The notes under the pieces were generated by a model that saw only the letters and a list, made by a program, of their open reading frames with translations, searched no databases and was not told where the DNA came from. 64,000 bases of DNA from Petrotoga sp. 9PWA.NaAc.5.4 (GTDB lineage Bacteria; Thermotogota; Thermotogae; Petrotogales; Petrotogaceae). Where the stretch lies: assembly GCF_002895485.1 (NCBI RefSeq), contig NZ_AZRK01000002.1, forward strand, positions 124,001-188,000. Direction: 5' to 3'. The position numbers were made by a program, and so were the translations under genes. The stretch's first letter is position 1, and every line of letters starts with the position of its first letter. Positions 28,081 through 31,160 of this stretch are shown piece by piece.

Positions 28081-28809
28081 TTAATTAGCTACCACTTCTT
28101 CTTTTAAGCCGCTTTCTTCTGTTCTTTCGTATACAAAATCTTTAGTAACTTTACCATCTTTTATTTCGACAATTCTACTTGCATATTTTTCAACTATTTT
28201 CATATTGTGAGTTACCATAATAATTGTCAAACCTAACTCTTTATTTATTTTCAAAGTTAAGTCCATCACTTTTTCCACATTTTTAGGATCTAAAGCAGCG
28301 GTGTGTTCATCTAATAAAAGTAGATCTGGTTTTGTTATCGAAGCAAGGATCATAGCAAGAGCTTGTTTTTGACCTCCGGAAAATTCACTAACCTTTGTTT
28401 TTAGCCTATTTTCTAAACCCATATTCAAAGATTTTATCAACTCAAGTCCTTGGTATTTTCCAAAAGAAAAAAATCTGTTTCCTTTTTTGGAACCAAGAAT
28501 AAGATTTTCTTCAAGAGTAAGATCTGGGAAAACACCTCTATCAGGTTCTTGATATACTATTCCAACATTTCTAAATAATTTATATGGTTTGGTCTTCTTT
28601 ATGTTTTTGGTGCCCAGAGTATATTGGCCGCTTTCTAATTCTACTTCACCTGTTAGAAGCTTCAGTAAAGTGGTTTTTCCCGCGCCATTTGGTCCTATGA
28701 TAGTAACAAATTCACCTTTTTTTATAGTTAGGTTCAAGCCATCTAAAGCTCTTTTTTCATTATTTTTGTTTTTATTATAAATTACTCGGATGTTCTTAAG
28801 CTCAACCAT
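28081..28809 (-). CDS. ABC transporter ATP-binding protein (TrpZ-like)
   Basis: Nucleotide-binding subunit of 242 residues. Walker A is GPNGAGKTTLL (residues 39-49), the signature is SEFSGGQKQALAM and Walker B LLLLDEHTAALDP. The H-loop His is in IIMVTHNMK. It overlaps the permease gene by 28 bp. With the permease and the binding protein it forms a three-gene importer of the TrpXYZ/YtrBC-like type whose transcript is controlled by an aromatic leader peptide, suggesting aromatic amino-acid uptake. Confidence 0.93.
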   Translation of the reverse strand: MVELKNIRVIYNKNKNNEKRALDGLNLTIKKGEFVTIIGPNGAGKTTLLKLLTGEVELESGQYTLGTKNIKKTKPYKLFRNVGIVYQEPDRGVFPDLTLEENLILGSKKGNRFFSFGKYQGLELIKSLNMGLENRLKTKVSEFSGGQKQALAMILASITKPDLLLLDEHTAALDPKNVEKVMDLTLKINKELGLTIIMVTHNMKIVEKYASRIVEIKDGKVTKDFVYERTEESGLKEEVVAN

Positions 28810-29771
28810 TTTTTTAATTCAACCCTCCTTAAACCAATCACTATAATAATAAACAAAGAAGTTATCAATTTCATATCGCTTGATTGGAATCCGATTACAT
28901 AACCATATCTCATAGCTAAAGCTAATAAAAATTGATAAACTACGGCTCCTATTAATGGACACAACATATTGTAGAATAAATGCATTTTTCCAAATATTAT
29001 TTCTCCAAGAATAACGGCAGCTAAAGAAGTAACAACGATTCCTTGACCCATGTTTACATCAGAAAATCCTGCGTACATAGAAAATAAAGATCCGGATATA
29101 CCAGCAAAAAAGTTTCCTAAAAAAAGACCTATAATACTCATCATTTCAGGATTTATGCCTAAGTTTTTTATACCTAACTTATTACTTCCATATCCTCTTA
29201 AAGCTATTCCAAACTCTGTCCTTAAAAAAATAATAGTAATAAAAAATGAAATCAATACAATAGAAAGTAGTAAAGTAGTTGAATTATAGCCAGAATTATC
29301 CCTAAATGGCGAGAGGGTCCTTTTGTTTTCATCGTTTTGAATAGTCTGTTGAGAATCTTTGTTAGTACTCATACCTAAAAGATCGTCTAATTTTGTTTTT
29401 TCTGTATAATAAGCTGTTTGCTGTGACTTAATTTCTTTGGGAGTGGAAATATTTGGACCGTTCATTACTCTTATATTTATGGAATAAAGCATAGTCATAA
29501 CAAGAATACTTGCGAGTAACACGTTTACTTTTAATTTGTTATATATCAAAGCAGTAATTATTCCAAAAAATCCTGCCATTATTCCTCCAAGAATCATACA
29601 CAATATCCATGGCAATCCCGCATACATAAAAGCGACAGTTACGGCTCCACCCAAAACATAAGAACCGTCGGGGGTTAAATCTGGAAGATCTATTACTCTA
29701 AAACTTATAAAGACTCCCATTGCGACAAGAGATGCTATGAGACCTTGTTCTAAAATTCCTATCAAATCCAT
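28782..29771 (-). CDS. ABC transporter permease (TrpY-like)
   Basis: Membrane subunit of 329 residues with about eight hydrophobic helices, of the branched-chain amino acid/sugar permease superfamily (BPD_transp_2). MGVFISFRVIDLPDLTPDGS at residues 19-38 is the characteristic N-terminal motif of the group paired with PF04392 binding proteins. A hydrophilic insertion of about 50 residues (around 110-160, rich in N, T and K) is unusual. GYGSNKLGIKNLGINP holds the loop contacting the ATPase. The spacer before this gene carries a right-end fragment of the dispersed repeat. Confidence 0.9.
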   Translation of the reverse strand: MDLIGILEQGLIASLVAMGVFISFRVIDLPDLTPDGSYVLGGAVTVAFMYAGLPWILCMILGGIMAGFFGIITALIYNKLKVNVLLASILVMTMLYSINIRVMNGPNISTPKEIKSQQTAYYTEKTKLDDLLGMSTNKDSQQTIQNDENKRTLSPFRDNSGYNSTTLLLSIVLISFFITIIFLRTEFGIALRGYGSNKLGIKNLGINPEMMSIIGLFLGNFFAGISGSLFSMYAGFSDVNMGQGIVVTSLAAVILGEIIFGKMHLFYNMLCPLIGAVVYQFLLALAMRYGYVIGFQSSDMKLITSLFIIIVIGLRRVELKKWLSLRTSE

Positions 29772-29798
29772 AATTTTCCTCCAAAAAAAGAACTTTTA

Positions 29799-29830
29799 CA
29801 GTTACTGTCTTTAGAAATTCTAAAATTCGT
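29799..29830 (-). repeat. Right-end fragment of the dispersed element before the permease
   Basis: Minus strand GAATTTCTAAAGACAGTAAC, 28 nt upstream of the permease ATG, matching the right-end consensus ATTTCTAAAGnnAGTAA. Confidence 0.6.
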
Positions 29831-29917
29831 TTTATCAATCTCAATTCTAATCTTTGGTAATTGCATATTTTAAAACCTATGAGCAAGCTTTATGAATTAT
29901 AATTAATATTTAGATTT

Positions 29918-30859
29918 TCACAAACTACCTACCACTTCATCTGCTATATCTATAAATTCTTGAGGAACCTTTACATTAAGTTTTTTTGCTCTATCTAAAT
30001 TTATATAAAAAGTTAAAGCGTTTGCTCCAACTATTCTTGATTCAATTTCAGAAGGTTTCTTTCCGTTTATAAGATCTAACACGATTTTTCCTGTTTCTAT
30101 ACCTACTTGATAATAATTAAATCCGAAACCTATAACCGAAGTATTTTTAGCTATGTCTATATCTCCTGCAATAACGGGGATACCCAATTTATCAAAAATT
30201 TGACCTAAAATTTCTGCTGAAGAGGCTACAAGGTTATCTGTATATAGATAAGCAATATCTATTCTATTAGCGTTAGCATTCAACGAAGTAACAAGTTCAT
30301 TCACAGTTGTTCCGGTAATTTCTATAACTTTAAAATTAAGTGCTGGAGCAATTCTTTTCGTTTCCTGAGCTAAAAATACCGAATTGGCTTCACCAGGATT
30401 GTAAAGTATCGCTAAATTTTTGGCTTCTGGAAATATGGTTCTCATTAAGTTAACGTGTGTTTCTACTGGTACCATATCGCTTATTCCTACGACGTTTCCA
30501 GGATTTTTACCCCATTTTGGAATTAACCCGGCACTTATCGGATCTGTAACGGCACTAAATACAACTGGTTTATCTTTTATAGTTGTTGCCGCTGCTTGGG
30601 CAGAAGGAGTTGCTATAGCAACGATTATATCCACATCTGTTTTAAATTTATTGGCTATTGCAATTGCATTTTGAAAATTATTTTGAGCACTTTGGTGGTC
30701 AACTTCAAATTTTACTCCAGATTCATTTAAATAGTCTACTATACCGTCATAGATTTTGTTTAAAGCGGGATGATCAACAATTTGGGTAATACCTATTTTT
30801 ACAGAAAATGCCATCGAGAATAATAACAATACTATCAACATCACTCCAACTTTTTTCAT
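29918..30859 (-). CDS. ABC transporter substrate-binding protein (TrpX-like, PF04392)
   Basis: Exported binding protein of 313 residues. The signal peptide MKKVGVMLIVLLLFSMAFS precedes VKIGITQIVDHPALNKIYDG, the typical start of the ABC_sub_bind (TrpX/YtxX) family. AIATPSAQAAATTIKDKPVV, PVVFSAVTDPISAGLIP and LAILYNPGEANS are conserved in that family, which transports Trp or related amino acids in several Firmicutes. The ATG at 30859 has GGAGGTG at 7 nt and a fitting signal peptide; the frame open to 31018 only reads through the attenuator and is not coding. The gene starts about 54 nt after the attenuator terminator, so its expression depends on read-through. Confidence 0.93.
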   Translation of the reverse strand: MKKVGVMLIVLLLFSMAFSVKIGITQIVDHPALNKIYDGIVDYLNESGVKFEVDHQSAQNNFQNAIAIANKFKTDVDIIVAIATPSAQAAATTIKDKPVVFSAVTDPISAGLIPKWGKNPGNVVGISDMVPVETHVNLMRTIFPEAKNLAILYNPGEANSVFLAQETKRIAPALNFKVIEITGTTVNELVTSLNANANRIDIAYLYTDNLVASSAEILGQIFDKLGIPVIAGDIDIAKNTSVIGFGFNYYQVGIETGKIVLDLINGKKPSEIESRIVGANALTFYINLDRAKKLNVKVPQEFIDIADEVVGSL

Positions 30860-30912: not shown

Positions 30913-30942
30913 AAAAAAAGGTGTCTACTTTTTGTAGACACC
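30913..30942 (-). terminator. Attenuator terminator upstream of the TrpXYZ-type operon
   Basis: On the minus strand GGTGTCTAC, loop AAAAA, GTAGACACC and seven T: a perfect 9-bp intrinsic terminator placed before the first gene. Its 5' arm shares seven bases with the antiterminator arm at 30936-30949, so the two structures exclude each other. Confidence 0.93.
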
Positions 30943-31006
30943 CAATTTGTTTAGCCTCTGCTTGTAATTTCTGAAAAGGTATCAGAAGGCACCAAATTGG
31001 GTGTCT
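30936..31006 (-). promoter_or_regulatory. Antiterminator stem of the aromatic-leader attenuator
   Basis: AGACACCCAATTTG and CAAATTGGGTGTCT, a perfect 14-bp inverted repeat with a 43-nt loop. The loop pairs further (GCCTTCTG with CAGAGGC, one bulge). The upstream arm (31006-30993) lies inside the leader reading frame, immediately after the aromatic codons; the downstream arm overlaps the terminator. Pairing of the two arms would prevent termination. Confidence 0.88.
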
Positions 31007-31095
31007 TTCCAATACCAAAAGTAAAAATGTTTTTTATTTTCAAACTTTAAATTATCAATATTCTTAAAGATTTGTACATATGAAATTTTTTTCAT
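30982..31095 (-). CDS. Aromatic-rich leader peptide of the TrpXYZ-type operon
   Basis: A 37-codon reading frame with ATG at 31095 and the ribosome site AGGAGA 5 nt upstream, ending with TGA at 30984-30982. Residues 24-29 are FYFWYW (two Phe, two Tyr, two Trp in a row); the last residues are KDTQFGAF. It begins right after a consensus promoter and overlaps one arm of an antiterminator stem, followed by an intrinsic terminator. This is the layout of a ribosome-mediated attenuation leader. A ribosome waiting for charged aromatic tRNAs would leave the antiterminator arm free, whereas translation to the stop would cover it and allow termination. Too short for default gene callers. The peptide itself need have no function. 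Confidence 0.9.
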   Translation of the reverse strand: MKKISYVQIFKNIDNLKFENKKHFYFWYWKDTQFGAF

Positions 31096-31130
31096 AGTAA
31101 TCTCCTATTCAACTAAAATTAATTTTTTTA

Positions 31131-31160
31131 ATTATACCACCAATAACTTAGATTTGTCAA
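31131..31160 (-). promoter_or_regulatory. Consensus promoter of the leader-TrpXYZ operon
   Basis: TTGACA (31160-31155), an 18-nt spacer and TATAAT (31136-31131) on the minus strand, both hexamers identical to the sigma-A consensus. Such a strong promoter with a terminator downstream fits control by attenuation. Confidence 0.93.

Follow-up and report, generated by a model that had tools for sequence, protein, structure and literature searches.

A very probable ribosome-mediated attenuator with a mixed Phe/Tyr/Trp leader upstream of a putative aromatic ABC importer in Petrotoga and other Thermotogota

The window analysed here is a 64,000-nt stretch of the genome of Petrotoga sp. 9PWA.NaAc.5.4 (contig NZ_AZRK01000002.1, positions 124,001 to 188,000). 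It carries three adjacent genes for ABC importer components, a substrate-binding protein, a permease and an ATPase, all of which score above the Pfam cut-offs (Table 1). The binding-protein gene comes first, behind its own Shine-Dalgarno sequence (AGGAGGTG, 30874-30867), and is separated from the permease gene by a 146-nt gap (29772-29917). Between the promoter and this first gene sits a putative leader open reading frame with a ribosome site, and an intrinsic terminator precedes the structural gene both in the window and in relatives. The promoter, ribosome site, leader, aromatic codon run and both stems had been described in a sequence-only reading of the same DNA, and on the minus strand that description proved exact to the letter. 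The antiterminator and terminator helices overlap by 7 nt (30942-30936).

Table 1. Features of the importer locus and its upstream leader, with positions in the window.
Feature	Position	Strand	Basis
-35 box TTGACA	31155..31160	-	sequence; shared with Petrotoga-type relatives
-10 box TATAAT, spacer 18 nt	31131..31136	-	sequence
Shine-Dalgarno AGGAG of leader	31102..31106	-	sequence
Putative leader peptide gene, 37 codons + TGA, MKKISYVQIFKNIDNLKFENKKHFYFWYWKDTQFGAF (ATG at 31095, TGA at 30984-30982)	30982..31095	-	counterpart (homologous or analogous) leader in 47/47 orthologous copies
Putative sensor codons Phe24 Tyr25 Phe26 Trp27 Tyr28 Trp29	31009..31026	-	sequence and codon counts
1:2 (pause-type) hairpin around antiterminator 5' arm	30986..31007	-	folding
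Antiterminator 5' arm (segment 2) AGACACCCAATTTG	30993..31006	-	14 bp perfect with CAAATTGGGTGTCT
Antiterminator 3' arm (segment 3) CAAATTGGGTGTCT	30936..30949	-	14 bp perfect with AGACACCCAATTTG
Terminator hairpin (segments 3:4) GGTGTCTAC-AAAAA-GTAGACACC (arms 30942-30934 and 30928-30920, loop AAAAA)	30920..30942	-	perfect 9 bp
T7 tract	30913..30919	-	sequence
ABC importer substrate-binding protein (PF04392), first gene under the proposed control	29918..30859	-	Pfam match
Importer permease (PF02653)	28782..29771	-	Pfam match
Importer ATPase (PF00005)	28081..28809	-	Pfam match; overlaps end of permease gene

A further hairpin (31007-30986), absent from the earlier description, was added here by folding the region behind the aromatic run. 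In the window this hairpin has low stability (-7.6 kcal/mol, compared with -5.6 for shuffles); in most relatives it reaches about -10 to -20 kcal/mol, usually well under shuffles. Its 5' strand begins in the codons directly after the aromatic run, and thus a ribosome stalled in the run would cover that strand. With this predicted hairpin the classical 1:2, 2:3, 3:4 set is complete.

The importer had been called TrpXYZ-type. The three-gene type holds, but the name is loose for the binding protein: it scores 214.7 bits, under the TrpX cut-off of 390 (NCBIfam NF041285), and at the two selectivity positions named for this protein family in work on Clostridioides difficile CD0873 (PMC6816091) it has Asp233 and Tyr249, where pneumococcal TrpX (SP1069) has Ala and Gln. 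Because it falls below the cut-off and is without the Trp-pocket residues of SP1069, we call it an aromatic amino-acid binding protein and not TrpX. The pocket residues give no clear ligand prediction; "aromatic importer" is the safer label for a system whose ligand is presumably an aromatic amino acid.

A search with the binding protein across 103 Thermotogota genomes returned 47 orthologous copies in 40 genomes. One additional match, in genome G041, was set aside as not orthologous (weak, 35% identity over 65 residues). The leader, the aromatic run, the antiterminator and the terminator are present at all 47 copies; two of these loci, L039 and L020, were counted by reading, L039 by hand because a second terminator closer to the gene misled the script. 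Leader lengths vary, and the arms are mostly dissimilar between families (GACACCC, GCCCTCTTCC, GGCATCCAC, ACGTCCTTTCT). Nevertheless, pairing is kept as the arms vary. Arms paired with their own partners give a mean score of 25.7, as opposed to 16.8 when partners are swapped among 11 families, and none of 20,000 permutations reached the observed value, although these 11 sequences are not wholly independent, since some of the families have similar arms. Within the Petrotoga type, pair 9 occurs as A-T, G-C, G-T and T-A, and pair 10 as T-A, A-T and G-T. An antiterminator that excludes the terminator is therefore conserved with compensating changes. In one relative (L031, G008) the stop codon of the leader falls within the antiterminator 5' arm (WKDT followed by TGA), and the 3' arm is altered to fit (GACACCTGATTT/AAATCGGGTGTC).

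The regulatory codons likewise cluster at a near-fixed distance upstream of segment 2. Over 46 leaders, aromatic residues occupy 212 of 367 positions (0.58) in the eight-codon stretch ahead of the arm, compared with 122 of 1276 (0.10) elsewhere in the same leaders. When the same script was applied to 72 homologous genes of other phyla, no attenuator was found in any of them, and all seven named Thermotogota loci of the control set (Pseudothermotoga, Kosmotogaceae and others) had one. The earlier reading of the locus as a ribosome-mediated attenuator is thus supported by its conservation in 47/47 copies and by arms re-paired after change. That reading had named homologous loci lacking the reading frame or stems as grounds for its refutation, and none of the orthologous copies lacked either. 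Very probably, then, this is a classical attenuator in which one mixed Phe/Tyr/Trp leader reads the aromatic supply and controls an aromatic ABC importer.

In the window, the two alternative folds of the full leader differ at equilibrium by only 0 to 3 kcal/mol. These differences are too small to decide between the folds, and equilibrium folding of the full leader was therefore dropped as a test of the switch; with folds so nearly balanced, kinetics must decide the switch, as they do in E. coli. Instead, the transcript was folded as it would be before the terminator 3' arm exists, with the RNA ending at the terminator 5' arm, at 58 C, and with the ribosome edge placed 12 nt beyond the first base of the A-site codon (an assumed, E. 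coli-like value). In this model, a stall at F24, Y25, F26 or W27 leaves the antiterminator formed at 0.98, 0.98, 0.98 and 0.92, respectively, and a stall at Y28, W29 or K30 at 0.69, 0.44 and 0.04. In all 10 leaders modelled (the window and nine others, from dissimilar sequence families), the step coincided with the end of the aromatic run. The values agree with the earlier suggestion that part of the arm would be hidden by a ribosome stalled at the last Trp (0.44 there, 0.92 at the first Trp), and they point to Phe24, Tyr25, Phe26 and Trp27 as the effective sensors, one or two per amino acid. The absence of translation also gives antitermination in the folding model, an outcome that a co-transcriptional 1:2 hairpin may alter.

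The proposed switch would operate as follows. When charged tRNA-Phe, tRNA-Tyr and tRNA-Trp are plentiful, the leading ribosome would translate through the aromatic run, cover the 5' arm (31006-30993) and reach the stop at 30984; the free 3' arm would then form the terminator, and transcription would end near 30913. If any one of the three charged tRNAs is short, the ribosome would stall at codons 24 to 27 and mask the 5' strand of the 1:2 hairpin, such that the antiterminator 5' arm stays open. The 14-bp antiterminator would form first and tie up seven nucleotides of the terminator stem; read-through into the importer genes would follow. The window leader stop is 22 nt past the arm start, where a terminating ribosome would still lie over most of the arm. 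In most relatives, the stop follows the arm start by about 36 to 45 nt, which puts the terminating ribosome off the arm, so that the 1:2 hairpin must occupy it. The stronger 1:2 hairpin of most relatives probably does the covering job of the terminating ribosome.

The same attenuator could also sense one amino acid (e.g. Tyr or Trp), with the other aromatic codons as neutral neighbours. For instance, paralogs with Trp-only, Phe-only and Tyr runs exist, so that mixing is not obligatory, and the final Tyr and Trp codons are so close to the arm that stalls there would not give full antitermination. However, Phe, Tyr and Trp all occur before the arm in 33 of 46 leaders, and Tyr and Trp in 5 more; the mix is retained across families with otherwise dissimilar leaders; and each of F24, Y25, F26 and W27 in the window leaves the arm at least 0.92 formed. 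We consider single sensing unlikely, and mixed sensing the better reading.

Nascent-chain arrest, for which TnaC is a precedent, would make the leader peptide itself, while in the ribosome tunnel, the sensor of a free aromatic amino acid. The leader is indeed aromatic-rich, but the order and spacing of the residues vary at the same place (FYFWYW, YAYWWF, YYYWY, VYYFWY, WWW, FAF), the constant feature is the distance of the codons to the arm, and the geometry fits expression on shortage, not on excess. Such a mechanism is highly improbable. Slightly less probable again is a T-box, a riboswitch (tRNA- or ligand-binding RNA) or a protein-controlled antiterminator with an incidental reading frame. 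It would have a parallel in Streptococcus suis, in which an importer of the homologous family is under a Trp T-box (PMC9382623). Against it, all copies retain the frame and the aromatic run, and no primary sequence is conserved between families; additionally, a search with the Rfam T-box, Trp and Phe leader families retrieved nothing from the window leader or from seven other loci.

Finally, a chance arrangement of an AT-rich leader is rejected as having a negligible probability. None of 5000 upstream shuffles (dinucleotides preserved, terminator kept) matched the quality of the antiterminator, and 2 of 1000 full shuffles reached the strength of the window's terminator. Among 29 terminator-like sites in the window, only the attenuator has a Shine-Dalgarno-led reading frame with at least four aromatic codons upstream of the arm; it also has the highest antiterminator score, 34, compared with 22 at the next best site. 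Conservation, the other-phyla control and the arm-swap permutations also contradict chance.

Attenuators of this kind are also found upstream of other aromatic genes, which were looked up individually in the window genome. This genome encodes trpE, trpA, pheA and tyrA and is thus probably prototrophic; several relatives in the other genera searched are without trpA and yet have the importer attenuator. An attenuator with the run FYYWYF (leader MNFKNYFEKVNMFYYWYFRKTPILVPLFVRTQT; L164:5510-5611, minus strand, G000:C43) precedes aroF-tyrA-aroA-aroE-aroC, and its arms (AGACACCCATTTTGG/CCAAAATGGGTGTCT) are close kin of those of the importer and of the same sequence type. A second precedes trpE (leader MKKEKITKIDFVEKNKNIVNTRNWWWHL; L162:9328-9414, minus strand, G000:C22) and ends NWWWHL, then stop. 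In the window genome there are exactly two terminators of the Petrotoga type and one of the trp type. The aroF attenuator is also present in the closest relatives (g3, g4), with other forms in a few more genera, and the trp attenuator in those close relatives (L165-L169) and two others. No attenuator was found before trpE or the DAHP synthase gene in the Thermotoga-like g37 genomes, or before tyrS/trpS-type synthetase genes or hisG in the window genome. Upstream of DAHP synthase in family f5 (L200, L202), the attenuator leaders YAYYYYYHH and AYHYYYYHP are nearly pure Tyr.

Where a genome has several importer copies, the leaders differ between copies. Those of G005 carry WWW, FSFF and FSFYFYYW; in both G039 and G051 one run is mixed, one holds Phe only (FVFAF, FAFAF) and one is a Tyr run (VYAYY, LYAYY); and G033 has one mixed run and one WWW. 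In the binding-protein tree, Tyr-less leaders arose at least three times. The second selectivity position is Tyr in all Thermotogota copies, and the first is Asp except in three copies, all with Tyr-less leaders and derived from two independent events, in which it is Phe. A clean rule by which leader codons predict the pocket residue is only partly true, as the two Tyr-less copies of G005 retain Asp233; the putative correspondence between leader and pocket is thus a lead, not a rule. The importer copies of G039 and G051 (L059, L066) lie in tandem, three in each genome; in their Phe-only copies, the residue aligned with Asp233 of the window protein is Phe.

At L038 (G005:C5, 128348-129271 and 131210-132325), tandem copies have a common leader start (MIKDNNKNLINIFSF), and the aromatic run and arms differ (FFRGGT and YFYYWRHT); one copy has an N run. 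From the leaders, this seems to be a recent duplication with a rewritten sensor. At L039 (G005:C10), the importer leader (MFESNYSNFNMNNWWWHL) has the same ending as the leader of the trp operon in the window genome (NWWWHL, stop), as if a trp attenuator had been borrowed. A serious but still tentative possibility is a phylum-wide, re-programmable aromatic regulon, in which the mixed leader would sense Phe, Tyr and Trp, and the run would be rewritten after importer duplication, alongside compensatory changes in the arms and, for two of the three independent cases, replacement of Asp by Phe at residue 233, a predicted ligand contact. If this is true, the leader could be read as a forecast of the ligand of its importer.

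Leader runs that combine several amino acids are known, e.g. in the ilv (Ile, Val, Leu) and thr (Thr, Ile) operons. The trp, pheA, pheST and ilv attenuators of Proteobacteria likewise have a leader with regulatory codons, three mutually exclusive hairpins and a U-tract terminator. In contrast to these, the present system combines Phe, Tyr and Trp codons in a single run, would control an importer and belongs to the phylum Thermotogota, and in most relatives the leader stop comes after the antiterminator 5' arm. The earlier reading knew of no described case in Thermotogota. Among the papers searched, none describes leader-peptide attenuators in this phylum; however, Vitreschak et al. (2004) reportedly placed Thermotogales among the groups with candidate attenuators, for biosynthetic operons, which would be leader-peptide attenuation in the same phylum, and this speaks against the claim. 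Leader-peptide attenuators of Proteobacteria are also treated in PMC9413887 and PMC1262725. The trpXYZ system of Streptococcus suis and its relatives has a binding protein of the homologous family, is of the same three-gene type and is switched on at aromatic shortage, but through a Trp T-box riboswitch and not a leader peptide, and its pocket residues differ from those of the window protein (PMC9382623). The uORFC-13-1 motif of Acholeplasma (PMC8632094), a putative Phe-codon uORF and terminator before aroF, is similar in its arrangement but differs in phylum and sequence and in having Phe only.

Overall, the mechanism is classical; the mixed sensor and the rewritten codon runs are the parts that may deserve more. 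Under the proposed switch, a deep-branching phylum of thermophiles would use E. coli-type attenuation as the standing control of its aromatic import, and this implies close coupling of transcription and translation in these bacteria at high temperature. Because the arms are largely unlike between families and the geometry is near-fixed, the loci form a ready comparative data set on the geometry that an attenuator requires. The paralogs with rewritten runs would offer a direct route from leader to prediction of the importer ligand.
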